NCBI GenBank assembly: GCA_905182635.1
Contig: CAJJCM010000004.1
Location: 1 to 39,985 of the forward strand
Direction of reading: 5' to 3'
DNA from: an uncultured Candidatus Poseidoniales archaeon
GTDB lineage: Archaea > Thermoplasmatota > Poseidoniia > Poseidoniales > Poseidoniaceae
Length of the DNA: 39,985 bases
The position numbers and the translations under genes were made by a program. The notes beneath the pieces were generated by a model. That model was not told where the DNA came from. It worked only from the letters and a program-made list of their open reading frames with translations, and searched no databases. Below, one piece after another: positions 3,701 to 29,728 of the stretch. Within the stretch, counting starts at the first letter, position 1; every line of letters begins with the position of its first letter.

Positions 3701-5825
3701 CATGGTATGGAGGGAATGGATAGATGATGACAATTTTAACCAATGGCCAGATGAAAATGAATACCATCCACTCGGCTTGTTTATTCCAAATAACCTCTCC
3801 TCACTGATCGGTCAATACACCTTGATGATGGATGATACCGGCGGAAGTATTGGGCAGAAAGTTTCAGTCTATCTGGCAGGTTCTGATAATGCAGGTCATC
3901 CACTGGAAAACGGTGGTACAAATATTTCTGGAGAACAATTGTTCATGTATCAAATAGCGACGGATGGAGCGCCTACTGTTGCCGCCAATGCGTTTTCGTT
4001 TGATGGCGGCAAGAAATCTTGGTTACATCCTGAAACACCCTATGTATTCGAAGTTGATATTTCAGAACCCAACGGTGGTTCTGACTTCTCGACCGTTGTC
4101 GTCGAATTGGCATCCAATCAAGGCAGCGACCCACTCCCTATTCGATGGGATTTCACCACCGGAAATTGTACCACGACCAGCCCCCACGTCTTGATTGAAG
4201 ATTGTGAAATGCGTGGCGCCAACGGCCCTGCCGACCCCTATGAGCGTGACATGACGCTCAATGTTGAACTGAAATTAGCATGGACCACCCCCGACTTGGG
4301 TGAAACTCGAAGAGAACCTGGGATTCGGGTGATCGATAGGGCAGGGCAAGAAGTCTTCCACACCTTCCCAGAACACCGCTGGCGATTTTCGGCAGCAATG
4401 GAGATACCGGAAGATACTGTGACTTTGATTCTCTCACAAGGAACATTATTGGGCGATGGTGCTCGTTTGGCACCAAACAGTCCTTTGGAAATTGCCGGAG
4501 ATGTAGTTTTTGCTGAAACAGGGCTCACCCCAGACTTCGATTGCCAAATCGAAGTTTTGTTTGCCGGCTCGACGACTTCAGCCAGTTCACTCGATGGAAT
4601 CTGGTCTGTTGCTTTGCAAGCACCTTCCACAACCATGACTATTCCGCTCACTTGGAGCGTTGGTTGTCTGCAAGGACAAGGTGTTGATGCTACCGACCAA
4701 GAAACATCGGTTCGCTGGATTATTGTTGATGGAACCGGTCCAATACCGGTTGAAGTTTCGAATCCTCGACCTGCCTCTGTCCTCGAAGCCGAATCACATG
4801 AAGTCCGTATTCTTCTTTCTGAAGCAGGTGGCTTAGATGTAGATTCACTTGAATTGGTTTGGTGGGTCGAAGAAAAAGCAACAGGTGACCGTTTGCGAAA
4901 CGGAATCGAACCACTTTCATTGGTGGGCTCAGACATTTCGGGATTACGTTTGGAAGTTGTTGGTTCCATTGATTTGAGCGAAATTACGTCTGAAATGTTG
5001 GAAAGCAGACTTTCAGTACATATTTTGGTCACCGGAAGAGACCTGGCTGACAATGAAGTTCTCGGTCTTGGCGGCACGCCTGCTGGAACGCCCGTTGGTA
5101 TTTGGGACATGGTGTGGCTCAAACCAGAATTCTCGATGCAAGGCGCTTCAATCAGTTATTCTCGTCTCTTGGTTGAAATTGGCCAAACAACAATTGTCAC
5201 AGCCTATGTAGAAAACACAGGTACACTCAACGGTTCAGTTGAAGTGATCTTTACCGAAGTTCTTGCCGATGGAACACATTCGATGCTCCGTCGCATGACG
5301 GTTGATGTTGCAAAAGGCGGTGGTGTGCCAGTCTCCACTGATTGGAATCCATCACAATCTGGTTTGCAATGGGTCGAAGTTCAGTTAGAAAGTGGTTCGA
5401 CTTCAATTGGTCCATCGATTGATGTCCGTCTGGAGCGTGAAGAGTCCTTTTCTGAGAAGGTCTTTGGAGATGTCCACCCTGTGCTGGGTACTTTTGCAGC
5501 CATTCTTTTCCTCTCTATTGTCCTTACAGGTTTGGTTTGGGCAAGGCGCATGACCTTGAACCGTGGTTCGAAATTGGAATACGATTGGGATGAGTACTCA
5601 TCTGAACTGGAAGACGATGACGACGAATATGAAGATGAAGAGGAGGAGGAAGCGCTAGCATCTCCGATTGAAACCGCACAGGTTGCAGCGGTAGCGTCTC
5701 CTGCCGCATCCGTTAAAGAAACGGATTGGGTTATGGGTTCAGATGGCTACTGGTGGTATCATGACAAAGGAACCAACGAGTGGTGGTACAAGAATACTGA
5801 AGGCGAAATCGTCCAGCACAAATGA
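702..5825 (+). CDS. Giant secreted/membrane-anchored Ig-like surface protein with WW-like cytoplasmic tail
   Basis: Unnamed 1707-residue surface protein. A basic N-terminus and hydrophobic segment (residues 8-25) form a signal peptide. Residues about 130-277 resemble a MAM or jelly-roll domain (alternating strands, Cys pairs, ending CDYWFVDDVHF). Many beta-sandwich segments follow, and a CARDB-like domain (VENTGTLNGSVEV) lies before a single transmembrane helix at about 1593-1613. After the helix come a basic stop-transfer stretch, a very acidic tail (runs of Asp/Glu) and an aromatic module with two WW pairs at about 1675-1707. The topology predicted is ectodomain outside, tail in the cytoplasm. 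GGGGAG precedes the ATG. The stop codon overlaps a possible nadE start (ATGA). The function could be adhesion or substrate capture; neither is shown by the sequence. Confidence 0.8.
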   Translation: MTGSSSRRGAFLLTLLMLFGGPLQSMLTDGTSPSSNPVFLEGDDTILFAGVGDDAILQLPGSGSYSDSLTIEVPSNAPVTDIHLSMKPSIDATHQGFVWSDDSIWSHSSSTNNGTFGQNNVLTGNGAGTLWDFNSNSIGWTFSNAYSSRVTSPSCGLNGSSGGSIRTYAGATYATSPVNDFSGVSAMPLHVWVREGSSSCGEEPDGNEDLQIQYRTASNTWTTLHTFSGSPSSTNIATQYMTNLPAAALHTTTQIRFHQTSGSGTCCDYWFVDDVHFATPPSAEWTSPTIGFPASSFQDVEQGPWAPLHIDAEVPSGANLNWTILDGSTGNPIPGMMGSGAGWIPLNALDWQTFTSIRLNLYLEPSSSGQMPSIYSVSGDGTYALSFTNDPILDGWTTKGGTAFSPATTSLNGMENDSFTSPWFSTSAALAEIHVDASMTLAQAQIRTSLAENWSDIALPYSMSLLGNEGSVGSYQVQFIAASNNTTDIWEVFDFETGAFGGVQPVAPAIDFAQDGIFEWGGSDARVGSWGWQDRFENGQTSIAANPGISGSSTVKAWIPATDLSSFCFSALSLNGNLASITLVHGGQNIANWTIENGSSYFVLDQTQLSELNAAIAGASSLASALGSYFTEIEFEVFGSGNVTLAGLGIPYEASNSVTALVDSAFVLEMNGARYGLSAAGGVHQIPLPLTSETAGGLHVSIEGLNTSSSVQLVNMDMHTDAIILTPSQRWQTMETTFNVFSSTAALARLDVVGGEYSATWLLPLNGGSPIGTGDSALVELHPTAAVTSVESGTSITMNITFRIEPSWEDSDTIQVSSRLLLSNGVLSIPALYSWGGMGSQGFENDLEIKQVTFTNSYGIELEPTDYYLKAGSTIEIGIQIGFEGMNTPDAFADGDAIVEFYRGENLVANTTVLDGNMWNLTENLPFTFGVAVWHFEVKPINGSGTTPAAVFTRAFHIDSIAPQVLETNINRYDHRTPSTTQTVQIQISDQPILPQNINAMVWREWIDDDNFNQWPDENEYHPLGLFIPNNLSSLIGQYTLMMDDTGGSIGQKVSVYLAGSDNAGHPLENGGTNISGEQLFMYQIATDGAPTVAANAFSFDGGKKSWLHPETPYVFEVDISEPNGGSDFSTVVVELASNQGSDPLPIRWDFTTGNCTTTSPHVLIEDCEMRGANGPADPYERDMTLNVELKLAWTTPDLGETRREPGIRVIDRAGQEVFHTFPEHRWRFSAAMEIPEDTVTLILSQGTLLGDGARLAPNSPLEIAGDVVFAETGLTPDFDCQIEVLFAGSTTSASSLDGIWSVALQAPSTTMTIPLTWSVGCLQGQGVDATDQETSVRWIIVDGTGPIPVEVSNPRPASVLEAESHEVRILLSEAGGLDVDSLELVWWVEEKATGDRLRNGIEPLSLVGSDISGLRLEVVGSIDLSEITSEMLESRLSVHILVTGRDLADNEVLGLGGTPAGTPVGIWDMVWLKPEFSMQGASISYSRLLVEIGQTTIVTAYVENTGTLNGSVEVIFTEVLADGTHSMLRRMTVDVAKGGGVPVSTDWNPSQSGLQWVEVQLESGSTSIGPSIDVRLEREESFSEKVFGDVHPVLGTFAAILFLSIVLTGLVWARRMTLNRGSKLEYDWDEYSSELEDDDDEYEDEEEEEALASPIETAQVAAVASPAASVKETDWVMGSDGYWWYHDKGTNEWWYKNTEGEIVQHK

Positions 5826-15593: not shown

Positions 15594-15635
15594 ATGGCTG
15601 AGCAACCGATTCTTTCAATAACCGGGGGGTGCTAA
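15594..15635 (+). CDS. Possible 13-residue leader peptide or displaced start of the next gene
   Basis: A short frame, MAEQPILSITGGC then TAA, starts at an ATG with GGGTGA three bases upstream, a better ribosome binding site than that of the following gene. It ends just after a run of six G (15624-15629). One extra G in that run would fuse this peptide to the frame of the downstream helical protein. It may be a leader peptide, the true N-terminus displaced by an indel, or chance. Confidence 0.3.
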   Translation: MAEQPILSITGGC

Positions 15636-16075
15636 GTTGGGCCATGGTGGCTACGCGTATGTCTCGGCGATGTCGTCGCTATTCAAAGCAAATTTTGCGT
15701 GTTAGCACCAAGATTGAACTGCAAACTATTGCCAGCCTCATCCAAAGTGAATTGGATAAGCGTATTTTGTCCTATGATGAAGCACTCACTTTGGGCAACC
15801 TCATACAAAACCGGGCAGATCAATTACCAGGCGACGCTATCGTTTACGCTCTATCAGACCGCGATGCATACCGGAGGACTTTAGAATTGTATTTGCGAGA
15901 CTCACTTTTGACCCAGACCGAACAAATGTTACTTTGGGAAGAGCGCCGCCGACTTGGCATTTCAGATGTCGAGCATGAGCGCTTACTCGAACAACTTCTT
16001 CTTCAATGGCGCCGCCAAGGAAAGAAAGTCACCATCGACCGTTTCAAAACTCCCGGGGGTGGGACATCTGCTTAA
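15629..16075 (+). CDS. Small helical protein, function unknown
   Basis: I do not recognise this 148-residue protein. It is predicted to be all helical and charged, with no signal peptide or membrane segment. Two stretches (about residues 30-62 and 83-132) read as repeated helical units with a short turn (LDKRILSYDEALTLGNLI; LRDSLLTQTEQMLLWEERRRLGIS), a pattern that recalls TerB- or SHOCT-like helical modules, but that is a weak resemblance. The start is unclear: GTG at 15629 next to a G run, ATG at 15644, or an upstream ATG at 15594 joined through a frameshift. Its end overlaps the GTG start of the giant protein by 17 bases, so translation is probably coupled and the two products may work together. 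Confidence 0.55.
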   Translation: MLSWAMVATRMSRRCRRYSKQILRVSTKIELQTIASLIQSELDKRILSYDEALTLGNLIQNRADQLPGDAIVYALSDRDAYRRTLELYLRDSLLTQTEQMLLWEERRRLGISDVEHERLLEQLLLQWRRQGKKVTIDRFKTPGGGTSA

Positions 16076-19000
16076 GATTCAATTAAACCAATCGACTTTA
16101 GCAACACTTCTCGTGTTACTGTTTATCGTCCCATCTTTTTTGCCCATTGCTGGAGCAGATGACGCTGAAGAAGCAAGCACCAGTGCTCGGAGCGGAACCC
16201 TCGACTTTACGTTCCGTGACGCACTTCAACTGAGTAACTCTGGCTCTGCCATTCTTTTGTCGAATTTGTACCTTGAACCCGGCGACCACATCGTGACGGC
16301 AAATGTATCTTATACCGGTACTGGAGATGATAACCTCCAACTGGTCCTCCAACATAAAGGCTCATCAATTCTTGATTTCGCTGATGTCCCCGGCTCTACA
16401 ATCGACTTTGGAACGCTCTATGGAAATTCTGCAGGGTCACAAATCGATATCCCTCCTAATTCGTTCACCTGGACAGCCTCGTCTGGAGCTGGACAGGAAT
16501 TGAGAGTCAAAATTATAGGGACGCAAGAATCGGGAATTAATCTACTGGATAATATACAACCACTCGGACTCCCCTTTTCTGTAGAACACAAACAAAAAGG
16601 GGACGCAACCCCTACAAACTTCCCAGCCATTTCCCCGGCGAGTTCTCAGATGACGTTATCAAAATCGAACCATTTGCTCAATGTTACTGCAACCAATTCT
16701 GGTGTAATAAGTCTTAATGCACAACTTTCAATTGTATTGACTCAAAATGGCACCCCCACTCCTTTGACCTATGTTTCGAATCAACCTCTGCTTGAACCCG
16801 GCTCCTATCCACTTTCATCCACGACATTACCAGATCAAGCCATACTCACTGCCGCACTCGATGCTTCTTCCTTAACTGGCGTCTACGAATTTGTTGCAAC
16901 CGTCACCTTTACCGGGTTGCAATCTGAAACGATCATAGTCAGCGAACCGGATACTTGGGTCAAATTCTCCGATTATAACGCGGATGTGATTGAGCCTTCA
17001 ACTTTAATCGTTGAACCCGGGGAATCCGCGGTCTTGACATTCCTCGTCGAAAACACAGGCGAATTGCCGGATCTCTTTTCATTCGTGGTGACTGAAAGTG
17101 AAACTCCCGGCTGGGTTTCTGTTGGAGATGTGCCCGACTTCGGAGCAACGATCAATAAAGGCCAGATACGCCTCATCTCAATTCCTGTGAATGTTCCCGC
17201 TGATGCAGTACGTTCGACGACAGACACGATAACGGTCACGTTTACATCCGCTTCAAGCCCTCCTTACGCGATTGTTGCCACCGGCCGAGTAATGGTCGGG
17301 GATTTCTTCGACGGCACAGTTACATTGATCACCGGCGTTGTTCCAAAACCAATCACACCCGGAGGTTCGGAGAATTTTATCGCCACTGTTGAAAATACAG
17401 GTAGCGTAGCAACTTCATTTTCACTCCTCGCAGGATTTTCGGTGAATGCATTGAATTGGACAATCAATATCAACACTGCGACCACACCGGTCATTGCGTC
17501 TGGTGCCACTCACCAAGTTTCTATTACAGTCACAGCGCCACCGATACAAAACCCGATCGTCACCAGTGAACACAACATGGCAGATGACGTGCTCAGCATT
17601 TGGATACAATCTCAACCGAGTGGTGGCGGTGTACCTGTGGTCGATCAGACCTCCCTCAAAGTAGAACCCGCCGTTGTCCTCGACCCAGGGCTCAGCACTG
17701 AACCCTATGAGGTCACGAATGAAGAAATCGAGGCGATGATGTCCGGGACTGTATTTTCGCAGCATCCTGAGATGAACATCCGTGTCGTTCACAACCTCCC
17801 CGTGAATCTTGTTGTCGAGACGCTCGATGCAGTCATTACGGTTGAAAAGAGTTTCACTGCCCGCAATGATGGCGGTTTCAGTGAAGTAGGCCGATGGGAT
17901 TTAACGGTTTCAAATCCGATTCTCACTGGCTTTAACCCGGGTGATACCCTCACTTCAGCGCTTAACATCGCAGGCCCACAGGCCAACCAATATCCTCTGG
18001 CGGGAACCTTTTCGGCTGCAGTGACTATTACGCCATCGCCCAATCCTGCTCTTCTAGCGAGCGGAGTAACCGCACTTCCATTCACTCAAATCTATGATGT
18101 AATCGTTCCATCAATCGTTAAAGGTGAATTCCTTGACATCGGGCCTTATGACATTAATGTCGGCAAAGATAACGCCATCCCTATGCGCTTTGCAAACGCA
18201 GGCAATGATGCCTCTTCTTACCGCCTCCGAGTTGTTAACGACCTTCCCGAAAACTGGACTGCTAACTTTAGCGATACTGATTCTTTAATCACGGGCCTAA
18301 CTTCCGACCTTGCTGATGGAACGATTGATGCAAATATCCCTGGTGGCAATGTAACTCACATGAAAATTGTGACATTCAATGTCAAAAGCGACCCACTTGC
18401 GCCAGCAGGATTGCACCAACCGATTCGAATTCGGATTGAAGACCCTGTTTCAGGACAACTCCTTGAAGATGAATTTGTGTTCGATGTTATCGTTGGTCAA
18501 GTCTTCAATGCTACACTCTCTCCTACCAACCAAACGCTGCACATGGATGTTTTAGAGGACACTTTCACCTCGATATATATTCGGAATACCGGCAATGCCC
18601 CTACCGACTATACGATTGCCTTGGATACGTCTTTGGCTGGAGCCGTTGTCTTTGAAATCGAGTCACCCACCAATTCGAAAATATTTATCGCAGCAGGATT
18701 CGAAGAAGCGATCCGGATAAAAATGACTGCAAATTCGGATGCGAATGCCGATGGAGTTTACATGGCTACAATCCTCGTGTCTGCAAATGACGGCCAAATC
18801 GCACTCTCTGCGGAGATATTTGCGAATATCTCCGAATTGCATAGTTTCAGCATCACGGCACCGACTCAAATGTCAGTGACGCCGGGGCTGCAAGAAAAAG
18901 TTGAATTCGAAATCGTGAACAACGGTAATTCCGAAGAAACAGTGACCGTAAATTTCACAGTTCAAGGAAATTTGACCTTGTCGGTTTATTCAATGACGGT

Positions 19001-21119
19001 AACGCTTCCAATCGGTGGTTCTGTTTCGGATCAAGTCATCGTCTTCATCCCAAGCCTAGGCGGGACAGATTCATTGGTGCAAGGCGACAGTTACAATCTT
19101 ACCATCACTGTATATAATGGGACTTCAAATGTAGCATACCCTGGCTCTAAGAGCGTTCAATTGCTGGTTCAGCCACTGTTCATAGCCGAATCATCCGATT
19201 GGCCTTCGGTAATGGAGTTCCGGCCACAGGCCTTGCGTACTTGGGAGGTGACACTCACCAACACCGGGAACCAAGATGTTACAGTCAATGTGTATTACAT
19301 GATTACTCGGCCTGGATTAACCAACACTTCTTCGACGGATTGGGAAATGGTGACTGAAAACTCTTTGCTTGTTCTGCCACGAAACACCCCAGTCGTTCAT
19401 TCATTCACAGTTCGTGGAAATGTTTCTAACCCACTCTTGTCGCTAACAGCAGACCTCACCTTACACCTCCAACCGGAAACCACTGCTGATGCTGATGGAG
19501 TAAACACTACTGTAGATGGAAAGGGTGAATTTAGTACTCAATTGATTATGTCCCGATTCTATTCCACCGGGGAGATTGGTCTCCAGCCTGCACTTGATGA
19601 CGGCCCAGTTCTTCAGCCGATTCCTTACAGCAATATACCAATTAGTAACGGTTCCGCCGTCGCCTATCAGGTTGAACTGTGCAACGCAGTGCGCCTCAAG
19701 GACATCGCTTCCTTAGGACAAAACCCATTGAACTATTCTTGGGGTTTCACTCTTATCGAAACGAAAGCAGATGGAACCACAGTCCCCCATCCTTTGGATT
19801 TAGAACAGGAATGTGGTAAAACTACTTCACTTGGCCCAACTTCAAGATACAATCTCCCATTGATGGAACCTTGGAATCCTGGAACATTCACTCTTGAAAT
19901 AGATATCCCGAATCGCGGCAGTATTCTCCCGGGTGACGGTTGGGACTTGACATTCCGACTTTACCACCCAGATGAAAACGCGGGTTACACTCAGTTTAAT
20001 GAAACCACATTCACACTTGTCTTAGCAGTGTTCGCCGATCCAATGGTCATGAGTATTGAATTAGTCGATGATTTAGAGGAAGGTAGCCAGAATACAGTTA
20101 CCGTGGTTATTCAAAATGTTGGTTCTGCAAAAGCCCTCGATGTGAGTGTTCATCTGCAATGTGATGGGTTGACAGTATCGACATCTGCTGAAGACACTCC
20201 TTCTCTCATTCCTGGTTCAGTTGGCGGTGGAATAAATAAAACTATGATTAAAGAGTTCGGCCCTGGTGATACAAAGACCCTACAATGGGGAGTTACAGCT
20301 GATTCGATTGATTGGTGGTTACAGAAAACGGATGTCACTTGTACCGCAACGGTCACTTCGTTCAATAATGAGACCAACGTCGAAGGAAATGATGAAAAAG
20401 TGTTCATAGGGGAAGTAACCTCTTGGTCTCCTGGAGTTCAAAACAGTTTCATTGCATGCGTTGCATGTTTACTGGTCTCACTCATCTTATTCCGCCTCAC
20501 TGCTCAAAATGATAATTTCCGCTTACTTGGAATTTACTCTGGAGTTCTTAGTCTTGGCTTCTCTTTCCACCTCTTTGGCGAAATATGGTGGGGCTTTGCC
20601 GTTCTTGGCCTTTCAGCACTTTGGATCTGGAGAGTAAGTTGGGGAAGTACTGAGGAATTCAGATTACTCCATGAAGATTACCAACGTGCACGTAAAGGTG
20701 TATCGACCTTATATGCCGACCACTTCGATGAATTAGGGAAAGCGCGTCGACAACTTGTCGTGATTTTGGCTGTGCCAGTTCTTGGCATGCTTGCAATCGT
20801 TCTTGGAATCCCACCTACGCTCACAATTGACAGTGTCAATATGATTAGTCTCGTATCCTATGTTGCAGTTGTTATTATTGGAGTCTGGATTCTCATCAAT
20901 CGAGCAGATTCCATGTATGGTACACTGTATGGGCGTCTTACTGATATTGAAGTGAAGTCAATACGTCTTGAGAGGGATTTGGGAGACCCTGCTCGTCTCT
21001 TTAACGAACTCGCAGCAGATGGATTGAATCTCGCCGAGATTTTCGGTGATGTAGAACCTTCGAGGTCCCTTAATCCCGAGGCAATTTTTTCAAACGAGGA
21101 GGTGAATGACGATGCCTGA
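16059..21119 (+). CDS. Giant ectodomain protein with NEW3/CARDB-like repeats and five C-terminal membrane helices
   Basis: Unnamed protein of 1686 residues at the head of the archaellum region. From the GTG at 16059 it opens with a signal peptide (STLATLLVLLFIVPSFLPIAGA). The ectodomain is a chain of Ig-like beta-sandwiches whose strands repeat the motif V-x-N-x-G-(x)-x-x-(x)-F/Y (VENTGELPDLFSF, VENTGSVATSFSL, IRNTGNAPTDYTI, LTNTGNQDVTVNV, IQNVGSAKALDVS), typical of NEW3 and CARDB-type domains. The C-terminal 220 residues hold five hydrophobic helices (first SFIACVACLLVSLILF, last VAVVIIGVWILI) with a charged loop between helices 3 and 4 and a charged tail of about 65 residues, placing the C-terminus inside. 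The frame extends to a TTG at 15954, which would spoil the signal peptide. It overlaps the next gene, so cotranscription is likely. A role as cell-surface anchor or stator for the archaellum is inference. Confidence 0.8.
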   Translation: MGHLLKIQLNQSTLATLLVLLFIVPSFLPIAGADDAEEASTSARSGTLDFTFRDALQLSNSGSAILLSNLYLEPGDHIVTANVSYTGTGDDNLQLVLQHKGSSILDFADVPGSTIDFGTLYGNSAGSQIDIPPNSFTWTASSGAGQELRVKIIGTQESGINLLDNIQPLGLPFSVEHKQKGDATPTNFPAISPASSQMTLSKSNHLLNVTATNSGVISLNAQLSIVLTQNGTPTPLTYVSNQPLLEPGSYPLSSTTLPDQAILTAALDASSLTGVYEFVATVTFTGLQSETIIVSEPDTWVKFSDYNADVIEPSTLIVEPGESAVLTFLVENTGELPDLFSFVVTESETPGWVSVGDVPDFGATINKGQIRLISIPVNVPADAVRSTTDTITVTFTSASSPPYAIVATGRVMVGDFFDGTVTLITGVVPKPITPGGSENFIATVENTGSVATSFSLLAGFSVNALNWTININTATTPVIASGATHQVSITVTAPPIQNPIVTSEHNMADDVLSIWIQSQPSGGGVPVVDQTSLKVEPAVVLDPGLSTEPYEVTNEEIEAMMSGTVFSQHPEMNIRVVHNLPVNLVVETLDAVITVEKSFTARNDGGFSEVGRWDLTVSNPILTGFNPGDTLTSALNIAGPQANQYPLAGTFSAAVTITPSPNPALLASGVTALPFTQIYDVIVPSIVKGEFLDIGPYDINVGKDNAIPMRFANAGNDASSYRLRVVNDLPENWTANFSDTDSLITGLTSDLADGTIDANIPGGNVTHMKIVTFNVKSDPLAPAGLHQPIRIRIEDPVSGQLLEDEFVFDVIVGQVFNATLSPTNQTLHMDVLEDTFTSIYIRNTGNAPTDYTIALDTSLAGAVVFEIESPTNSKIFIAAGFEEAIRIKMTANSDANADGVYMATILVSANDGQIALSAEIFANISELHSFSITAPTQMSVTPGLQEKVEFEIVNNGNSEETVTVNFTVQGNLTLSVYSMTVTLPIGGSVSDQVIVFIPSLGGTDSLVQGDSYNLTITVYNGTSNVAYPGSKSVQLLVQPLFIAESSDWPSVMEFRPQALRTWEVTLTNTGNQDVTVNVYYMITRPGLTNTSSTDWEMVTENSLLVLPRNTPVVHSFTVRGNVSNPLLSLTADLTLHLQPETTADADGVNTTVDGKGEFSTQLIMSRFYSTGEIGLQPALDDGPVLQPIPYSNIPISNGSAVAYQVELCNAVRLKDIASLGQNPLNYSWGFTLIETKADGTTVPHPLDLEQECGKTTSLGPTSRYNLPLMEPWNPGTFTLEIDIPNRGSILPGDGWDLTFRLYHPDENAGYTQFNETTFTLVLAVFADPMVMSIELVDDLEEGSQNTVTVVIQNVGSAKALDVSVHLQCDGLTVSTSAEDTPSLIPGSVGGGINKTMIKEFGPGDTKTLQWGVTADSIDWWLQKTDVTCTATVTSFNNETNVEGNDEKVFIGEVTSWSPGVQNSFIACVACLLVSLILFRLTAQNDNFRLLGIYSGVLSLGFSFHLFGEIWWGFAVLGLSALWIWRVSWGSTEEFRLLHEDYQRARKGVSTLYADHFDELGKARRQLVVILAVPVLGMLAIVLGIPPTLTIDSVNMISLVSYVAVVIIGVWILINRADSMYGTLYGRLTDIEVKSIRLERDLGDPARLFNELAADGLNLAEIFGDVEPSRSLNPEAIFSNEEVNDDA

Positions 21120-22173
21120 TATGAGCCCAGTCGAGTCATTGTCTTCTGAGGAGAAGAAACACGATGAACTGCCACAGTTTGAGGACGAGATGAACTCAGA
21201 AACTCCCGCACCACCACCATCACCGGGCATTGATGATGAATCATCAGCAGACCCAACCTCCGATGCCGAAGCAACACCAGAGATGTCTGAACAGGCTATG
21301 GCAATATCTCAAGATCTCGAAAGTATGGTGTTGGGAGTTGCTCATGATGACACCAATTCATTAGCCGGTACAGATCTCGAAATCGGTGAAGCAAGAAGAC
21401 TCTTACATACACATAAACTTCGACGAGCGTCAGCAAGTGTAAAGAATGCGGAATCATCACTGGTTGAACTCGAAGAAGATGTCTTGTATCTTCGACGTAA
21501 CATCGCTATGCTACATCGATTGTTGAACGAGAAAAAAGTGAGTGAAAAAGATATCGAAACGATTCTCCTTCGTCTTCGTAGTGCAACAGGTGCTGCTGAA
21601 ATCGGTGACGTGGGTGGAGCGGCTGGAGAAGTAGAATTCCTCGTTGATGATTTGATTGGCGGAAACACATCGACCCTCAATCCTTTCTTATTCCGTCATT
21701 TTTGGATGGGATTAGAAACGCGATGGCCTGCTGGCGGTGATGAAGGCGTTCTTGTTATTCGTATCATCAACGATGGACCTGTTGCTATGCCGCCTATGCG
21801 CCTTTCACCACCGGTTCCAGAAGGCTGGACTTCTACCCCATCCTCAGTTGACCTTCCAACCATCGCTTCAGGTGGAAACCTCCCCGTCCGATTCAATATC
21901 GCTTCGAACCGCCGTCAATCTTCTGACGAGGTACCTCTCTCGCGCAAACTGGCAATCACCACTGGTTACGAAATCCGAACGGGTGAAGTCTTCGTCACAA
22001 TCCGAGCACAAAACCGTTCAATGGAACCCCTCTCTGATGTTCTTCTCACGCCATGGTTCCCACCAGGCTATACCTCTGACACAGTTCCTTTTGTAGCACG
22101 TCTTGCTCCCGACGAAGTGGCGATCATCCGAATGCCACTTCGAATCAACATGAGTTCTGGGGGTACGTCCTGA
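21112..22173 (+). CDS. Cytoplasmic coiled-coil plus beta-sandwich protein, archaellum-linked, function unknown
   Basis: Not recognised. This 353-residue protein has neither signal peptide nor membrane helix. Residues 1-65 are acidic and rich in Pro/Ser (probably disordered). Residues about 75-185 are helical with heptad-like spacing (EARRLLHTHKLRRASASV, LVELEEDVLYLRRNIAML). Residues about 200-350 form a beta-sandwich like those of NEW3-type proteins (LVIRIINDGPVAMPPM, VFVTIRAQNRSMEPLSDV), unusual for a cytoplasmic protein. GAGGAGGTGA lies 6 bases before the ATG at 21112, which is preferred to the ATG at 21106. The gene overlaps the giant protein and precedes the archaellins by 48 bases. It might link the inner tail of the giant protein to the motor; that is inference. 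Confidence 0.75.
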   Translation: MPDMSPVESLSSEEKKHDELPQFEDEMNSETPAPPPSPGIDDESSADPTSDAEATPEMSEQAMAISQDLESMVLGVAHDDTNSLAGTDLEIGEARRLLHTHKLRRASASVKNAESSLVELEEDVLYLRRNIAMLHRLLNEKKVSEKDIETILLRLRSATGAAEIGDVGGAAGEVEFLVDDLIGGNTSTLNPFLFRHFWMGLETRWPAGGDEGVLVIRIINDGPVAMPPMRLSPPVPEGWTSTPSSVDLPTIASGGNLPVRFNIASNRRQSSDEVPLSRKLAITTGYEIRTGEVFVTIRAQNRSMEPLSDVLLTPWFPPGYTSDTVPFVARLAPDEVAIIRMPLRINMSSGGTS

Positions 22174-22221
22174 ACTCAATCTTGTTCCACCCTATTTTGG
22201 GGGATTTTAAATGGTGAAAAT

Positions 22222-22782
22222 ATGAAAGAAAATACAAACGAAAAAAGCGATACTCTCGCAGCGATTGGTATTGGTGCAATGATTGTTTTCATTGCTCTGA
22301 TTTTGGTTGCCGCGGTTGCAGCAGCAGTTATTATTCAAACAGCTGAAAAGTTGCAACAGAATGCCCAAACAACTGGAGCTGATGCTTCGGACATGCTTTC
22401 AACGAAAATAATCATAATTAGCGTCGTTATTCCAGTCGTCAACGAACTGTACATCACTTTTGAACTAGCACCTGGTTCAAACGATATCCCTCCAGTGAAT
22501 GTCGAATGGTCTATTATTTGCGCTAATGGTGTTGATTATGGCACTTTTGCTCAGGCTTCACTTGTCGGAACTACTGCACTGGTGACGGCTACAGGCAACG
22601 GGCAATTGGTTATCGACACAACGTACGACTTACAGCTTAGAAATGCTGCCGGTGGAATACAAAATTGCCTTCCAACTGCAAGTGCATCTCATACGCTTTT
22701 GATTCAATCCGTTTCAGGTGGCTTTACAGAAGAAACTTTGGATTATAGCTCGGATGTCAGCCCAGGGGAGATGGTATATTGA
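22222..22782 (+). CDS. arlB: Archaellin (archaellum filament subunit), first copy
   Basis: Filament protein of the archaellum. It has a class III signal peptide: a short charged leader, then the cut expected after Gly16 in LAAIG/IGAMIVFIALILV, followed by the hydrophobic helix that forms the filament core and IIQTAEKLQQNAQTTG. The C-terminal part is a beta domain exposed on the filament surface. Length, 186 residues, is short but within range. Two cysteines (100 and 149) lie in the outer domain. GGTGAAAAT precedes the ATG. A TATA-like CTATTTTG at 22192-22199 may give the archaellins their own strong promoter. The prepilin peptidase needed for processing is not in the window. Its N-terminal helix is almost identical to that of the next gene. 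Confidence 0.93.
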   Translation: MKENTNEKSDTLAAIGIGAMIVFIALILVAAVAAAVIIQTAEKLQQNAQTTGADASDMLSTKIIIISVVIPVVNELYITFELAPGSNDIPPVNVEWSIICANGVDYGTFAQASLVGTTALVTATGNGQLVIDTTYDLQLRNAAGGIQNCLPTASASHTLLIQSVSGGFTEETLDYSSDVSPGEMVY

Positions 22783-23405
22783 AGACTGAATCCCGAGAAA
22801 TTCAAGATGACAAGTTGGCAGCGATTGGTATCGGTGCTATGATTGTCTTCATTGCACTCATTTTGGTCGCAGCAGTTGCAGCAGCAGTTATTATTCAGAC
22901 AGCAGAAAGGCTCCAACAGAATGCACAAACTACCGGTGAAGATACCTCCAGAAATTTGGCAGGGAAACTCTTGGTCCGCGCTGGTTTTGTCTCTACCGGT
23001 GGTCCAACTGGTGCACCAGGTACTTTCCTACCAGGTGAGGCATACGCATTGTATGTTCGCCTTGCACCCGGTAGTTCACCGGTAACGATTAACCAGATAT
23101 CATATCAATTTATGTGTGATCTAGGTGTAGTCGAGGGTGGTTTTAGCAATGCAGCTCAAGGTGTTATTGCACCAATGCAAACTGGAGTCGCTATGCCCCC
23201 CACCCAACAATTACAACCTGGGGACCCCTATGTTCTTTGGATGGATGCTCAGTTGGTAGGCTTAATTGATTGTTCCCCTGACAACACTGGTATAGGTGGT
23301 GTCCCTGACACAACGATTCGGCTCTATCTTCACGTCGGAACCGGTGGGTCCACCTACGAAGTTCTCACAATTGGTTCAACGGCTGCTGGCTCAGAGGTGA
23401 TTTGA
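22779..23405 (+). CDS. arlB2: Archaellin (archaellum filament subunit), second copy
   Basis: Paralogue of the preceding gene: the class III leader (cut expected after Gly17) and helix through NAQTTG are nearly the same, while the outer domain has diverged and is longer (208 residues). The motif for strands (LYVRLAPGSSPVTIN) and the cysteine pair (113 and 165) align with those of the first copy. The start is a TTG that overlaps the previous stop (TTGA), with GGGGAG about 9 bases before it; no ATG lies between it and the signal peptide, and the resulting leader matches copy 1 in length. The weaker start codon may set the ratio of minor to major archaellin (inference). Confidence 0.9.
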   Translation: MKTESREIQDDKLAAIGIGAMIVFIALILVAAVAAAVIIQTAERLQQNAQTTGEDTSRNLAGKLLVRAGFVSTGGPTGAPGTFLPGEAYALYVRLAPGSSPVTINQISYQFMCDLGVVEGGFSNAAQGVIAPMQTGVAMPPTQQLQPGDPYVLWMDAQLVGLIDCSPDNTGIGGVPDTTIRLYLHVGTGGSTYEVLTIGSTAAGSEVI

Positions 23406-23444: not shown

Positions 23445-24275
23445 ATGGCATGGCCTTTTAGTAAAAACACCGCACAAAACCAAGATGCAGATGCAGCTCT
23501 TACCGAAGAGCGCCTTAAAATCATGGCAAATATTGCTATCGAACAGGTACCGCTTCCGGAGGAGGGAGAACTCAACGCTGAAGATGCGTGGACCATTAGC
23601 CCTGGGGCTACCATGGCTCGGCTCAACAGTATCGGCAGTGTCCCTACTGTCGCAGCAAGTCTTGCTCCAACAGCGTCCCCAACCCAAGTGAGCACAACAG
23701 TTGATACTTCTGGACTTGAACGTCTTATCAGTACGCGTCTTGACATGGTTGAAGACGTCTTGCGTAAGGTAGAACTTCGATTGACTGACGATACATCTGC
23801 AGCTCAAGGCGATGGGTCTCATTCAGAAGGTGGCGCTTCCAGTCATGGCGGCGATACCATCGTAACCGCTTCTGGTGAAGTCATCAGCGTATCAGGTACC
23901 GAGCGATTAATGGAGACCGATAATGCTCCACTCGTTGAACTGTATGAAGCACAAGCTTTGGCAGCAAATCCCTTTTTACACGCCCCTTCATTTGGCGCAA
24001 CCACTGAATCCAATAAGGTAGGCGCACCTACGATTTCTGCGCTCTTACTCGACAACATGTCAGGTATGGCAGCAGTAAGTTTTGCTCAAAAAGCAATGGC
24101 TTCGGGAATGCTTTCGGATGGTGAAGGTCGAAAGGTACTTGCAATTGTCCAACTTGCAGAACCCGGTCAATCAGAAGCAGCTCTCGACGATCATTTGACG
24201 CACAAGGAGTTGCTCACGTTTTCATCGCTTGTAAGTTCATGGCGAAACGTGAAATCACTTCGAGGTGAAGTCTGA
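23445..24275 (+). CDS. Unknown archaellum-operon protein in the arlC/D/E position
   Basis: Not recognised by family. This soluble 276-residue protein has no signal peptide or membrane segment. It has a linker rich in Ala/Thr/Pro (60-88), a helix (LERLISTRLDMVEDVLRKVELRL, about 91-113), a Gly/Ser/His-rich linker (118-137) and a mostly helical C-terminal domain (165-276). In euryarchaea the genes between archaellins and arlF encode ArlC, ArlD and ArlE, which form the cytoplasmic switch ring. Here one gene fills that place. The C-terminal stretch with AQKAMASGMLSDGEGRKVL faintly recalls the YY-x-x-x-GWIS region of the ArlD/E domain, but lacks its Trp and Tyr. AAGGAGGA precedes the ATG at 23445. 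Call as switch component is inference. Confidence 0.65.
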   Translation: MAWPFSKNTAQNQDADAALTEERLKIMANIAIEQVPLPEEGELNAEDAWTISPGATMARLNSIGSVPTVAASLAPTASPTQVSTTVDTSGLERLISTRLDMVEDVLRKVELRLTDDTSAAQGDGSHSEGGASSHGGDTIVTASGEVISVSGTERLMETDNAPLVELYEAQALAANPFLHAPSFGATTESNKVGAPTISALLLDNMSGMAAVSFAQKAMASGMLSDGEGRKVLAIVQLAEPGQSEAALDDHLTHKELLTFSSLVSSWRNVKSLRGEV

Positions 24276-24276
24276 C

Positions 24277-24933
24277 ATGGGTGCTTCGGTCGGGGTTGGA
24301 GGTCTCATTATTGGGATCTCTATGTTAGTGGTCTTTTCAATGGCCGTCACATCATTGAACAGTCAAACGGCAACCTCGCTGGAAGCCATTGAATCCGCTC
24401 ATACCCCCGAACCAATTCTTACCATTGACAATGCTCTATTCAGAGATGTGATTGATACGGTCGACATTGATTCCGGTGGCACAGGCGGCTATGTTAGTGG
24501 ATTTTTAACCTCTGCCGATTGCCCTGACTTTGAAGCCTCATTTACTGCGGTGGGAGGGGTTATTACCTCGGTTGACTCAATCGGAAACCGTGGTATTTGT
24601 ACAACACTCGCCCCAACTCTTACAGTCTTTAATCAACCTGGTAGCAACGATGATGCAACATTTACTGGTAATGTAATACCCTACCTCTACGTAAACGTCA
24701 CCAACAGTGGCACTGAAACTCTTTCCACCACTGAGTCTTGGATCTTCTTTGACGGTTCATCTCCAACCACGATACAATCGAATGCTCCTCAATTTAATCC
24801 TCCAATCAGGATTGATAATTGGTTTTCTGGGCAAACTATTGCATTGATTTGTGATGATTGTGATGTTACATACGAACGTTTGAGTTTGACAGTTGGTGAA
24901 ACCAGTGTCTCTCGGACCATAGAGACTAACTAA
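24277..24933 (+). CDS. arlF: ArlF-like archaellum stator protein with an inserted domain
   Basis: ArlF and ArlG form the extracellular filament-like stator that ties the archaellum motor to the cell envelope. This protein starts at the ATG at 24277 (GAGGTGAA 8 bases before), giving MGASVGVGGLIIGISMLVVF, the N-terminal helix typical of ArlF. The C-terminal part has the family beta-sandwich (YLYVNVTNSGTETLSTTESWIFFDG). Between the two, residues about 60-133, lies a Gly-rich segment (GGVITSVDSIGNRGICTTLAPTLTVF) like the repeat found in phage and viral structural proteins. That makes 218 residues, longer than the usual 120-160. Cys82 and Cys108 may pair. It is preceded by, and overlaps within coupling distance of, the unknown gene upstream. 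Confidence 0.8.
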   Translation: MGASVGVGGLIIGISMLVVFSMAVTSLNSQTATSLEAIESAHTPEPILTIDNALFRDVIDTVDIDSGGTGGYVSGFLTSADCPDFEASFTAVGGVITSVDSIGNRGICTTLAPTLTVFNQPGSNDDATFTGNVIPYLYVNVTNSGTETLSTTESWIFFDGSSPTTIQSNAPQFNPPIRIDNWFSGQTIALICDDCDVTYERLSLTVGETSVSRTIETN

Positions 24934-24942
24934 GGTGATTGA

Positions 24943-25446
24943 ATGGCAGACGGTGGTGCATCAACAATCATTATGCTGGTTACAGCATTATTGATATCGA
25001 GCGCTGCAAGTGCAGTTCTTGTTCAAGAATGGTCTTCTACAACTCGTGCAATTCAATATCAACAAAAGGGATTGGAACTTTCTGCAGAGATTGGTATTGA
25101 TTTTGCAGGTGACCCAATGATGGTGTCGATTACGACTGGACCGCCTAATGTGATTATATTTTACATTCAAAATACCGGTTCTCATCCAATGGACGCTACT
25201 TCTCTAGCAGTTTTGGTGGACGGAGTGAGCATCCCTAATCCTTCGATTACAACCGCCTTTGTCCCCATTGCTTCGGCACAATGGAACCCCAATGTTTTAC
25301 TTGAAGTGACGTTGACGGATAACGCCCTCAACGCATTGAACGACGATGACGAAATCTCAATCTATGCGACTGCGAGGTCCGTTGTCGTATCGGGTATCTC
25401 GATGAGTGTAAGTTTAAACGAGGAGGTGCAACTTCATGAATCCTAG
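24943..25446 (+). CDS. arlG: ArlG-like archaellum stator protein
   Basis: Partner of ArlF in the pseudo-periplasmic stator. The N-terminal helix (STIIMLVTALLISSAASAVLVQEW) resembles the archaellin/pilin-like helix of ArlG. A helical linker follows, then the beta-sandwich with NVIIFYIQNTGSHPMDATSLAVLVDG, the family signature with the conserved N-T-G turn. Length 167 residues is normal. AAGGTGAT precedes the ATG. The end overlaps arlH by 11 bases, and the arlH ribosome binding site (GAGGAGGTG) lies inside this gene, so translation is linked. Confidence 0.87.
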   Translation: MADGGASTIIMLVTALLISSAASAVLVQEWSSTTRAIQYQQKGLELSAEIGIDFAGDPMMVSITTGPPNVIIFYIQNTGSHPMDATSLAVLVDGVSIPNPSITTAFVPIASAQWNPNVLLEVTLTDNALNALNDDDEISIYATARSVVVSGISMSVSLNEEVQLHES

Positions 25447-26173
25447 TGAAAACGATCCATTCAAGGCTGCACATAAACCCGTTGAAGACGGGTTTCCCTA
25501 CGACCTAGAAACTGATTCACTTGCTGATTCGATGGGTCTTCGTCTTCCAAATCGTTCTCTCTATGTCCTCCAAGGTGCTGTCGGTGGTGGAAAATCTTTG
25601 ATTTCACAACGACTTGTATACGGTATGGTCGAAAACGGAGTCAAAGTCTTGGTTATTACAACCGAATTAACCACCCGTGGTTGGATTGAACAAATGGAAT
25701 CAATCGGATATGGAATTACTGACGCTATCCGTGAAGGAAAACTTATGGTTTTCAGTCGGTTTGGTTCCGTTGCTGAATCAAATCCCGATATCAGCCTTGA
25801 ACAACTCTTGGATTCTGAAGCAATCGAACTTGCTGATGTAGTGGTTATCGATTCAGCAAGTTCGCTGATGCCTTCCCATCTCGATGACTCCAGCCGATTC
25901 AAATTATTGCAACGCCTTCGTCAAATCGCTTCGAAAGGTCGTTCACTCATGCTTTGTGTGGACCCGGAAGAAATGGATGCGAAATTAATGCATAACCTAC
26001 GCAGTTCTGCTGAAGTTGTATTGGACCTTATGACCGCCATGATTGGAGGAGAAATCAAACGCAACATCGTGATTACTCGTTACTTACGTGCTGCTGGGCC
26101 AATTCAAACTTCCATTGGATGGCGTGTTGAACCAAGTATGGGCTTCATTGTGGACATTACGGCTGTGAGTTGA
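25436..26173 (+). CDS. arlH: ArlH, RecA/KaiC-like regulatory ATPase of the archaellum motor
   Basis: ArlH binds ATP and docks on ArlI to control assembly and rotation. This 245-residue protein has Walker A GAVGGGKS at 47-54, Walker B VVVIDSASSLMP and the RecA-fold strand LMLCVDPEEM. The length is standard. GAGGAGGTG lies 8 bases before the ATG. It sits in the universal order arlF-G-H-I-J, with arlI 14 bases downstream. The TTELTTRGW segment after strand 2 is as in other ArlH proteins, where a Thr/Ser there has been linked to autophosphorylation-type control; that role is not shown here. Confidence 0.95.
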   Translation: MNPSENDPFKAAHKPVEDGFPYDLETDSLADSMGLRLPNRSLYVLQGAVGGGKSLISQRLVYGMVENGVKVLVITTELTTRGWIEQMESIGYGITDAIREGKLMVFSRFGSVAESNPDISLEQLLDSEAIELADVVVIDSASSLMPSHLDDSSRFKLLQRLRQIASKGRSLMLCVDPEEMDAKLMHNLRSSAEVVLDLMTAMIGGEIKRNIVITRYLRAAGPIQTSIGWRVEPSMGFIVDITAVS

Positions 26174-26187
26174 AGGAGGTATTGTAG

Positions 26188-27906
26188 ATGGCTGAAGATG
26201 AAACTGGATTTGCGAAGGGCGACCTTACAAGCGTCATGAATGCGCACCCTCACGTTGCAAAATGGGTTGAGGATTTTGAAGCAAGGTATGGAACCCGTCC
26301 GGTCTATTACGGTCCTCTTGACCGAGATGCGAAAAAGCAGCGCCCACTCAACCTCATCTATCTCGCCAAAGAACCAATTTTCATCCATATTTACGAACCT
26401 CCTGCTGATGAAGAAGGTGGTGGACAGGTTCTTTGGTTCGGATTGGAACCGCAGTTAACGGAGGAAGAAGAAAACATCCGCCGTGAATTGGTTGAAATCC
26501 TTCTCCAAGAAGCACCCAGTGCTCCAACCTTCACAACGGACGATGAATTCGAGTCAATTCTCAGTCAAATGATTGAGAGGTATACAGTGCTTGAAGAAGA
26601 CCTCACCACTTCAGTACGCCGTCAAGGAAGAATATGGGAGATGATGGGATTGGATGACAAGCGAATGATCGTAACTCCCAAACAACGTGAACTTTTGCAA
26701 TATACCATTATTCGTGACTTGATTCGAAATGGACCACTGGAACCTCTCCTCTCTGATGAGATGTTGGAAGATATACATTCGATTGGTCTGAAGAATGTCC
26801 ATATGGACCACAAGGTGTTTGGAATGGTAACATCAAACATTCGATTCCGAGACCGAGAAGTTCTTGCTCGATTCTTGCGTGCGATGTCTGAACGAATTGG
26901 TCGCCCGGTCTCCGATAATAGACCAATTATCGATGGTGCTTTGCTTGACGGTTCCCGTATCAATATTATTTTCTCTGACGATGTTTCAATGCTTGGCCCA
27001 TCGTTTACCATCCGTAAATTCGCTGAAGAAACGATTTCCATTACCCAATTGGTTGCTTGGGGTACAATTTCAGCTCAAGTTGCCGCTTACATTTGGATTT
27101 GCCTTGAATACGGAATGTCGGTTCTTGTATCGGGAGAAACAGCGTCTGGAAAGACAACGACACTCAATGCGATTTTACCGTTCATCGACCACAATGTCAA
27201 AATCTATTCTGCTGAAGACACTCCTGAAGTCAAAGTACGACACAAGATTTGGCAACGACTGGTCACTCGTCAGTCGAAGAATGAAGATTCAAGCGTCGAA
27301 ATGTTCGACCTTCTCAAAGCGGCTCTACGTAGCCGTCCACGTTACATTATCATTGGTGAAATTCGGGGTGTTGAAGGGGCGACAGCCTTCCAAGCAATGC
27401 AGACCGGTCACCCTGTTATCGCGACATTCCACGCATCCTCGATCGTTAAGATGATTCAACGATTCACAGGCGACCCAATCAATGTTCCAATTCGTTTCTT
27501 CGATAACTTGAATTTCGCTATCTTCCAAGAAGTAGTCGAAGCGCCTGGCGGTGGAATCGCTCGTCGTGTCACAGGTATCGATGAAGTCATCGGTTACAAT
27601 AAACACAGCGATGGTGTCCTCACTCGTGGAATGTTCGAATGGGACCCTGTAAAGGATAAGCACTATTTCCGGGGAATGTTCCAAAGCCATTTGTTGGAAA
27701 ACAAAATTGCTGCAATGGCAGGATTTTCTAATAAGCGTGATATTTACGATGAAATGCTCAAGCGTGCAGACGCTCTTCAACGCATGGTTGACAGAGACCT
27801 GACGCATTATGATGATGTCTTTGATTTACTTGGAATTTACTACAACAGTGGTTGGGAATATTTCGACAAGGCAGTTGATACTTGGAAAGGCATAAACCAT
27901 GACTGA
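26188..27906 (+). CDS. arlI: ArlI, archaellum motor ATPase
   Basis: Secretion-superfamily hexameric ATPase that powers both assembly and rotation. The Walker A GETASGKT is at 316-323; the Asp box and Walker B region is RYIIIGEIRGVEGATAFQAM, and the His box is GHPVIATFHASS. The N-terminal domain (about 1-230) carries the usual ArlI segments, among them YTIIRDLIRNGPLEPLLSDE and IHSIGLKNVHM. Length 572 residues is typical. GGAGGT lies 8 bases before the ATG. Neighbours are arlH upstream and arlJ 10 bases downstream. No key residue is missing. Confidence 0.97.
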   Translation: MAEDETGFAKGDLTSVMNAHPHVAKWVEDFEARYGTRPVYYGPLDRDAKKQRPLNLIYLAKEPIFIHIYEPPADEEGGGQVLWFGLEPQLTEEEENIRRELVEILLQEAPSAPTFTTDDEFESILSQMIERYTVLEEDLTTSVRRQGRIWEMMGLDDKRMIVTPKQRELLQYTIIRDLIRNGPLEPLLSDEMLEDIHSIGLKNVHMDHKVFGMVTSNIRFRDREVLARFLRAMSERIGRPVSDNRPIIDGALLDGSRINIIFSDDVSMLGPSFTIRKFAEETISITQLVAWGTISAQVAAYIWICLEYGMSVLVSGETASGKTTTLNAILPFIDHNVKIYSAEDTPEVKVRHKIWQRLVTRQSKNEDSSVEMFDLLKAALRSRPRYIIIGEIRGVEGATAFQAMQTGHPVIATFHASSIVKMIQRFTGDPINVPIRFFDNLNFAIFQEVVEAPGGGIARRVTGIDEVIGYNKHSDGVLTRGMFEWDPVKDKHYFRGMFQSHLLENKIAAMAGFSNKRDIYDEMLKRADALQRMVDRDLTHYDDVFDLLGIYYNSGWEYFDKAVDTWKGINHD

Positions 27907-27916
27907 GGGATGATGT

Positions 27917-29728
27917 ATGCAGCGACTGTCTTACTGGCAAATCGCGCTACGTCGTGTAGAAATTCCGATTATCCAATTCCTTGTGTTTATGGTTGGAGGT
28001 GCAGCTCTTGCAGGTTTAATCTTTGCATTTATCTTCATCGCAGTGACTGGAGGCATGGGTGATCAAGGCCTCTTCTCTGGAACTTCAGGCGTTTTATTCA
28101 TCATACTTTTACCAATCCTCACGGGTGGTGCTGCGATGGCATTTCCGCTCCTGGAAGTTCGCCGTTCTGCGAATCTCATCGAAAAAGAGATGCACATGTT
28201 CATCACGCGAATGGGTATCCTTTCCCTCGGAGAAGTTGCGGCTCAATCGATATTCGATATTCTTAAACAAATGAGTGATTACGGGGAATTGGCAAATGAA
28301 GTACAGAGTATTGAAACTTTAGTGGATAAATGGCATACCTCTTTACCCGAAGCATCTCGAATAGTGGCTCAGCAAAGCCCGAGTCCTCTGTGGGCTGATT
28401 TCCTCGACCGAATGGCGTTTTCAATCGAAGCAGGACAAGCAATCGATGAGTTCATGCGTTCGGAACAAGAAACGATTGCAGAACAATATTCTACATTATA
28501 CGATACACGTCTTGAATCGGTAGATGCGATGAAAGAAATATATGTCTCATTGGTTACTGCAGGATTGTTTGGTTTGGTGATTGCAGGTATTCATTTGGTG
28601 CTGTTTGAAGTTGGTTCTGCCAGTGACACACCAATCATGGTAGCAAGTCGAATGCGTTTCTTATTGTTAGCAGGACTCCTGTTTACGGCTATCCAAATTG
28701 GAGGGGTATTGGCATTCCGTGCTACGATTCCTGAAGACCCAACGTTTGCCCGAGATGACCTTGATACGCCATTCCGAATCAACTTCGTCCGTTCTTTGGT
28801 TGGTGCCAGCATTCTCACGGCGATTCTTTTGGTCGTGACACTTTTTACCATTCTCTCTGCTTGGGAAGCAGTTACATCTCAATGGGACCGTTACGGTCTA
28901 CTTTTCATTGCAGCCCCATTGTCGCCAATGCTTGTCCCAGCCATTATGGTCTCTCGCGAAGAGCGTAAAATTTTCCGGCGTGACGAAACATATCCTGATT
29001 TCATTCGAGCCCTGGGTGGCACAGCACAGGCCCGTTCAGCTGAACCGTCAGCGACAATCAAGGCGCTTCGTGGAATTGATTTTGGAATGCTTGACAATTC
29101 CATCGACCGTTTGGAACGCCGTCTTTCTACACGAATTGACTCTGACCGCGCATGGGACTACTTCAACGCAGATACGAATTCTGCCGTCATCTCACGTTAT
29201 ACCCGGATTTACATTGAAGGTTCTCATTCATCAGGCCAGCCGGCTCGTACTGCTGAACTTGTTTCACGTTCGGTGGGTAACCTCCTGTCATTACGCCATC
29301 GCAGGTCACTCTCAGCAACCACCATGCGAGGTGTTGCGCTCGGTTTGCTTATCGCATGTGTCACCAGTTTGAACGTCACCATCTCAATTGTTATGAAACT
29401 TGGAGAATCAATTGCAGGTGTAGCCACATCGTTCGTGCTAACTGACGGAACCGAGGTCAGTGTTCTCTCCGAATTTGGTGCAGGACTCGCTCTTCCGATC
29501 ATGGATGATGCATCTGGTGTCGAAGAAAATATCAGATTGTTCAAAATCATTGTATCTATATTGATTCTCTTCCAAGTGTGGGCAGTTTCAGTCATATCAA
29601 ACCGATTGAGAGGCGGGGGAAAGACGACTGCTCTTGGGCAATCAATACAATTGCTATGGGTTGCTGGAATTGCTTCATACGTCACCTCGCTGGTTTTAGC
29701 AATGGCATCGTCAATGTTCAATGTGTGA
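27917..29728 (+). CDS. arlJ: ArlJ, archaellum membrane platform protein
   Basis: Polytopic membrane protein on which ArlI and ArlH assemble. This 603-residue sequence has about nine hydrophobic helices, grouped as two near the N-terminus (IIQFLVFMVGGAALAGLIFAF; GVLFIILLPILTGGAAMAF), four in the middle, and three at the C-terminus. Between them lie two positively charged cytoplasmic helical domains with the T2SSF/TadC pattern (ADFLDRMAFSIEAGQAIDEFM; YPDFIRALGGTAQARSAEPS). GAGGGAT precedes the ATG. It is the last canonical archaellum gene. A small 3-TM gene follows after 39 bases. Confidence 0.95.
   Translation: MQRLSYWQIALRRVEIPIIQFLVFMVGGAALAGLIFAFIFIAVTGGMGDQGLFSGTSGVLFIILLPILTGGAAMAFPLLEVRRSANLIEKEMHMFITRMGILSLGEVAAQSIFDILKQMSDYGELANEVQSIETLVDKWHTSLPEASRIVAQQSPSPLWADFLDRMAFSIEAGQAIDEFMRSEQETIAEQYSTLYDTRLESVDAMKEIYVSLVTAGLFGLVIAGIHLVLFEVGSASDTPIMVASRMRFLLLAGLLFTAIQIGGVLAFRATIPEDPTFARDDLDTPFRINFVRSLVGASILTAILLVVTLFTILSAWEAVTSQWDRYGLLFIAAPLSPMLVPAIMVSREERKIFRRDETYPDFIRALGGTAQARSAEPSATIKALRGIDFGMLDNSIDRLERRLSTRIDSDRAWDYFNADTNSAVISRYTRIYIEGSHSSGQPARTAELVSRSVGNLLSLRHRRSLSATTMRGVALGLLIACVTSLNVTISIVMKLGESIAGVATSFVLTDGTEVSVLSEFGAGLALPIMDDASGVEENIRLFKIIVSILILFQVWAVSVISNRLRGGGKTTALGQSIQLLWVAGIASYVTSLVLAMASSMFNV

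Follow-up and report, generated by a model that had tools for sequence, protein, structure and literature searches.

Two adjoining genes of the Candidatus Poseidoniales, one for a giant surface protein with a column of Ig-like domains and five transmembrane (TM) helices and one for its predicted cytoplasmic partner, are very likely associated with the archaellum, and I propose that their products make up an accessory envelope-spanning archaellum module, likeliest an anchor or collar that would join the outer stator (ArlF/ArlG) to the cytoplasmic ring, a mechanical role to which I give a probability of roughly one in two. The window, that is the whole stretch of 39,985 nucleotides that was analyzed, comes from a 66.5%-complete Candidatus Poseidoniales genome whose named relatives are Candidatus Poseidoniaceae, MGIIa, and from up148 to the end of arlJ at 29728 its genes follow one another in a single direction:

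15629-16075, forward strand: up148, a 148-aa cytoplasmic protein, family unassigned, overlapping the start of the giant
16059-21119, forward strand: the giant, 1,686 aa, with signal peptide, about 11 Ig/NEW3/CARDB-like domains, five C-terminal TM helices, and cytoplasmic loop and tail
20001-21023, forward strand: region of the giant used as profile A2, comprising the membrane-proximal Ig-like domain, the five-TM module and the start of the cytoplasmic tail (AF2 pLDDT 86.5)
21106-22173, forward strand: the partner (profile A1), 355 aa, cytoplasmic, with a helical (TPR-like) bundle and two Ig-like beta domains
22174-22221, forward strand: partner-arlB intercistronic gap, 48 nt, with an inverted repeat and a GGTGA ribosome-binding site
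22222-22782, forward strand: arlB1, archaellin (Pfam Arch_flagellin, 2.8e-18)
22779-23405, forward strand: arlB2, archaellin (Pfam Arch_flagellin, 5.1e-20)
23445-24275, forward strand: putative arlC/D/E, named by position only, with no Pfam or NCBIfam family match
24265-24933, forward strand: arlF (NF052590, 5.7e-7, below the curated cut-off)
24943-25446, forward strand: arlG (NF052591, 1.9e-14, below cut-off)
25436-26173, forward strand: arlH (NF052589, 1.3e-52, below cut-off)
26188-27906, forward strand: arlI (NF058587, 1.5e-203, above cut-off)
27917-29728, forward strand: arlJ (NF004704, 3e-114, below cut-off)

ArlI is identified by a score above its own NCBIfam curated cut-off, and ArlF, ArlG, ArlH and ArlJ, all below theirs, by best family and order; arlB, arlF, arlG, arlH, arlI and arlJ are contiguous and co-directional. 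Neighboring genes from up148 to arlJ overlap or are separated by 9-48 nt, and the earlier note on this DNA was right that both genes run with an overlap and in the same direction into arlB, the start of the partner overlapping the end of the giant by 14 nt and its stop lying 48 nt before the start of arlB1. In this last gap (22174-22221) there is a C-rich/G-rich inverted repeat, TTCCACCC...GGGGGA, which recurs in the same gap of loci L002-L036, and genera g9 and g18 have a TATA-like stretch in its place; the hairpin was seen by eye and, as RNAalifold backed only three pairs, on a poor alignment, was set aside as a conserved structure, although the element is possibly a processing signal or an internal promoter. 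Searches of Pfam and NCBIfam returned no match for up148, a protein that is conserved, and overlaps the giant start, in Poseidoniaceae and one Thalassarchaeaceae genus (g18) and that is itself missing in g13, g14 and g20; in g14 the giant is preceded instead by a cytoplasmic protein of >800 aa in which coiled-coil and beta segments recur (L042 3-2825, L043 14995-17499, L065 1-2049). Elsewhere in the window (702-5825) lies a second giant protein of 1,707 aa, for which a weak Reelin-subrepeat is the sole match.

The giant starts at a GTG codon in a frame that is open from 15954, and hydropathy, the AF2 model and the alignment agree on a signal-like N-terminal segment, an ectodomain that reaches roughly residue 1455, then five TM helices and a tail, with a cytoplasmic loop at residues ~1526-1560 of the window protein and, in the AF2 model, a TM5 that continues as a long cytoplasmic helix. 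The 1686-residue architecture claimed by the earlier note (signal peptide, NEW3/CARDB-like domains, five C-terminal TM helices, cytoplasmic tail) is thus confirmed by the open reading frame, Pfam, hydropathy and AF2, the last modeling the final ectodomain unit and membrane part with a pLDDT of 86.5. The Pfam matches that pass the cut-off, NPCBM_assoc/NEW3 and CARDB, are confined to the C-terminal part of the ectodomain. Its tandem beta units are marked by nine N-x-G motifs, each conserved in 96-100% of the 26 giants compared and mostly 111-130 aa from the next, with two double-length gaps that suggest about eleven units. The protein is conserved along its full length and its architecture stays constant even at 24-28% identity; the membrane-proximal Ig-like domain has two invariant Cys, and the best-conserved 25 residues are the loop between TM3 and TM4, which would be cytoplasmic if the ectodomain is outside.

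The partner possesses neither TM helix nor signal and is predicted to be cytoplasmic. The earlier note had described it as a cytoplasmic coiled-coil/beta-sandwich protein; the cytoplasmic location and the beta-sandwich hold, whereas "coiled coil" is better replaced by helical or TPR-like bundle, since the AF2 model (pLDDT 78) has a helical bundle at 58-184 followed by two beta-sandwich domains at 199-347. Several genera of Thalassarchaeaceae have a longer helical part, which looks TPR-like. The NEW3 match in Pfam is sub-threshold, and Pfam and NCBIfam gave no matches of the partner to the ArlX or ArlC/D/E families, nor of either protein to the Arch_flagellin, ArlF or ArlG models, so that the archaellin homology of an ArlF/ArlG-type stator was seen in neither.

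What ties these proteins to the archaellum is their distribution. When 194 Poseidoniales genomes were searched three times, with locus maps drawn for both families, 114 genomes were found to have both partner and ArlJ and 67 neither (two spurious hits removed), leaving 5 with the partner only and 8 with ArlJ only, and those of the 13 discordant cases that were inspected stop at contig breaks. A giant match is still present in six of the eight ArlJ-positive, partner-negative genomes; the other two, G027 and G045, were rejected as archaellum genomes without the pair, their contigs ending at arlF. The odds ratio for co-occurrence of partner and ArlJ is ~190, with Fisher p values, uncorrected for shared ancestry, of 1.4e-36 at genome level and 2e-5 at genus level. 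The pair is present in 12/12 testable archaellum-bearing genera and absent from 7/7 genera without ArlJ (one spurious hit removed), making it archaellum-dedicated in the Poseidoniales. Among 107 distinct partner loci, which include named public genomes, the giant lies directly upstream in 104 (the other 3 are contig ends) and arlB directly downstream in 92 (15 contig ends), without exception, a synteny far beyond chance and one that bears out, within this order, the proposed tie of both genes to the archaellum. A partner-like match in the arl-free genome G156 lies beside FtsY, with a receiver-like domain, and was dismissed as spurious, as were weak matches to the giant in the archaellum-free genera g16 and g19, which reach E ~1e-4 or weaker with the full-length query and do not appear as five-TM matches.

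The earlier note had further called the pair lineage-specific, and this proved too narrow. Profiles of giant and partner gave weak matches elsewhere in the Thermoplasmatota, some of them side by side, and reading of the DNA revealed giant-partner pairs; homologous pairs, or the partner, precede arlB in three further families, namely f11 (pair directly before arlB in G212, G226, G253, G256 and G220, and G238 with the giant on another contig), f28 (G241 and G263) and f12 (G203, with the partner cut by the contig start and the giant off the contig). In f26 (G231) the pair lies at a contig end; in f8 (G199, G218) and f18 (G210) it lies away from arl genes in genomes that contain ArlJ, and the partners have an extra, zinc-ribbon-like C-terminal part; in f25 there are partner-like proteins without a giant. 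Profile-profile comparison puts the remote homology at a probability of 96.8% over 241 columns for the partner, 96.9% over 154 columns for the giant (last Ig domain and first TMs), and 99.1% over 268 columns between the f11 and f8/f18 types. These comparisons indicate that the pair is a patchy Thermoplasmatota module, wider than the Poseidoniales. Separation from arl genes, which the earlier note named as a case against its proposal, therefore does occur in f8 and f18, with archaella kept, but never in the 107 Poseidoniales loci. A wider partner profile matched 32 of 80 archaellum-bearing genomes outside the Poseidoniales, ~12 of them partner-like over the helical and beta parts or over both beta domains and most others with short TPR-like stretches in other proteins; as many archaellum-bearing Thermoplasmatota among these 80 have no match, the pair is not essential to archaella. 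In a tree of ArlI and ArlJ the archaella of f11, f28, f12, f26, f8 and f18 fall in one weakly supported clade (66%) and the Poseidoniales on a separate long branch; the pair may have arisen once and been unlinked or lost later.

Some of these genomes deserve separate mention. G220 (f11, 93% complete, no ArlJ found) was considered as a case of a free-standing pair and rejected, since the pair, arlB and a partial operon are still there, as expected of a truncated or degenerate operon; at its locus (L231) the operon that comes after the pair and arlB is shortened and adjoins a 2,231-codon frame, and the archaellum is possibly decaying. Two archaellum clusters that fall apart in the ArlIJ tree occur in G241 (f28; L216, L201); the pair is seen with one of them, and the other starts at a contig edge. 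In G210 (f18; L172 6013-11180) the genes after the pair are not arl genes but four others in the same direction, for predicted cytoplasmic proteins mostly with coiled-coil matches, three of them with zinc-ribbon-like ends.

How might such a pair work? The giant would be secreted and held in the membrane by its five TM helices, its Ig-like column rising outside the membrane, either encircling or flanking the filament, as a possible seat for ArlF/ArlG; the conserved cytoplasmic loop and long C-terminal helix would bind the partner, which would join ArlC/D/E in an inner collar close to the motor, and the two proteins, alongside ArlF/ArlG, would keep the motor's static part from turning. The pair would supplement rather than replace ArlF/ArlG, because arlF and arlG are both retained, and the predicted topology (an outer Ig-like column, five TMs and a conserved inner face) combined with a dedicated cytoplasmic partner would suit a bridge from outside to inside, although such contacts and the place at the motor are what I infer from gene order, co-occurrence, domain make-up and homology across families. 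Against an anchor, PDB fold searches with the models of both proteins returned generic Ig-like matches only, with no structural match indicating an anchor and none informative for the five-TM part; against a role confined to the archaellum stand the f8 and f18 pairs away from arl genes.

Some indication of who touches whom may come from rates of evolution. Evolutionary distances of the operon proteins were compared after subtracting the shared signal of the core motor proteins; ArlF and ArlG, a known pair, served as the positive control. Across 21 operons the ectodomain of the giant correlated with ArlF (r 0.63) and ArlG (r 0.62), its TM/cytoplasmic part with the partner (0.57) and the putative ArlC/D/E (0.54), and most correlations across compartments were low. 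A second run on 15 genomes, with RNA polymerase B joined to the core and STT3/AglB as unrelated control, gave 0.55 for the TM/cytoplasmic part against ArlC/D/E, 0.37 against the partner and -0.04 against the TM part of STT3, whereas the ectodomain gave 0.43 with ArlF, 0.40 with ArlG and 0.38 with the extracellular part of STT3/AglB. The inside grouping of TM/cytoplasmic part, partner and ArlC/D/E held with this control; the outside half of what had been a clean outside/inside split was reduced to suggestive, the ectodomain signal with ArlF and ArlG being perhaps a general extracellular effect, since the control is nearly as high. The partner itself correlated nearly equally with ArlH (0.61) and ArlC/D/E (0.62). 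As an aside on the control, the STT3/AglB match forms the N-terminal end of a ~3,200-codon open frame in most Poseidoniales examined (L291 G000:C26:34000-47500; L277-L290, L293), and the enzyme thus seems to be extended by a very large additional region.

Other roles for the pair have to be weighed against the anchor. No CheW was found in 60 Poseidoniales genomes, with Haloferax and Methanosarcina controls positive, which agrees with Rinke et al. (PMC6461757), who proposed adhesion as the main role of the archaellum on the basis of absent chemotaxis genes and enrichment of flaJ in the 3-20 um particle fraction, and this absence keeps two alternatives alive. The giant could be a surface adhesin for particles, co-expressed with attachment archaella, with a partner that only folds, stabilizes or clusters it; adhesins typically have Ig-like repeats in tandem, and in PDB fold searches the giant's last domain matches CARDB structures, but an adhesin would not usually be anchored by five TMs, conserve a cytoplasmic loop or come with an obligate cytoplasmic partner, and length and architecture are nearly constant without an obvious variable tip, so that I regard this as unlikely. 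Alternatively, the ectodomain could sense an outside cue that the five-TM module and the partner relay to ArlC/D/E, standing in for the missing chemotaxis route. ArlC/D/E is the normal docking site of CheF, the covariation of partner and TM/cytoplasmic part with the putative ArlC/D/E and the exceptional conservation of the cytoplasmic loop would fit such a relay, yet neither protein has a known signaling domain in Pfam or NCBIfam and the ectodomain is a run of uniform Ig-like repeats with no recognized ligand-binding domain, which makes a signaling input distinctly improbable. It is more doubtful again, and I consider it highly unlikely, that the pair is a widespread Thermoplasmatota surface-layer system captured beside arlB in some lineages for co-expression only: the unlinked pairs of f8 and f18, with the zinc-ribbon-like addition to the partner, and the partner-like proteins of f25 are what such a history could leave behind, but archaella are retained in f8 and f18, and absence from all archaellum-free Poseidoniales genera is not expected of a general surface layer.

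The anchor or collar also has to be placed among known archaellum parts. In current models ArlF/ArlG bound to the S-layer hold the motor, with ArlX or ArlC/D/E as the inner ring (PMC12024892, PMC12448462), and both the bridge between ArlF/ArlG and the ring and the replacement for the S-layer are unsettled in recent papers (PMC12024892, PMC12448462). The earlier note had argued from a missing S-layer, and that argument is weak: Thermoplasmatales that lack an S-layer do form archaella, and they apparently swim with nothing more than the arlB-J operon (PMC12448462), so a missing S-layer does not demand the pair, and many archaellum-bearing Thermoplasmatota lack a partner match; for the Poseidoniales envelope, no description was found in the open-licence literature. 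Like the ArlF/ArlG periplasmic stator, as Tsai et al. (2020) are cited for it in PMC13319060 and PMC12024892, the giant is an extracytoplasmic Ig-fold protein encoded in the arl operon for which an anchoring role is proposed, but it is several times larger than those small, archaellin-derived proteins with one TM, has five TMs, and has both arlF and arlG beside it. The partner resembles ArlX and ArlC/D/E as an accessory protein encoded in the arl cluster and predicted on the cytoplasmic side of the motor, but differs in being a helical bundle with two Ig-like domains, without TM or family match, next to a putative arlC/D/E that is also present. NEW3/CARDB-repeat archaeal surface proteins (PF10633, PF07705) share the ectodomain building blocks, yet those giving weak matches elsewhere typically have one C-terminal TM in place of a five-TM module with a dedicated cytoplasmic partner. 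Tully (2019, PMC6336850), in a map of the motility operon of MGII (Fig. 4), pointed out conserved orthologues in synteny that lacked annotation; operon and organisms are the same as here, and those genes may include this pair, but I found no architecture, function or occurrence outside MGII described there. Genera possessing the operon were recorded by Rinke et al. (PMC6461757). In the open-licence literature I found no account of how the two proteins are built, of their constant association with each other or of homologues outside MGII.

Taken further, and more tentatively than the anchor role itself, the pair may represent a second kind of archaellum anchor, in which the Ig-like column would serve as outer bearing for ArlF/ArlG while the cytoplasmic end is tied through the partner to the ArlC/D/E ring, giving one continuous scaffold from outside to inside in place of an S-layer; such an anchor would predate the divergence of the Poseidoniales from several other Thermoplasmatota, with unlinking or loss in some of them afterwards. 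The most abundant surface-ocean archaea have a conserved gene pair, for a transmembrane and a cytoplasmic protein, that is inseparable from their archaellum genes, the archaellum parts list varies among Thermoplasmatota families, and there are now named candidates for what may hold an archaellum without an S-layer and bridge its outer stator to the cytoplasmic ring.
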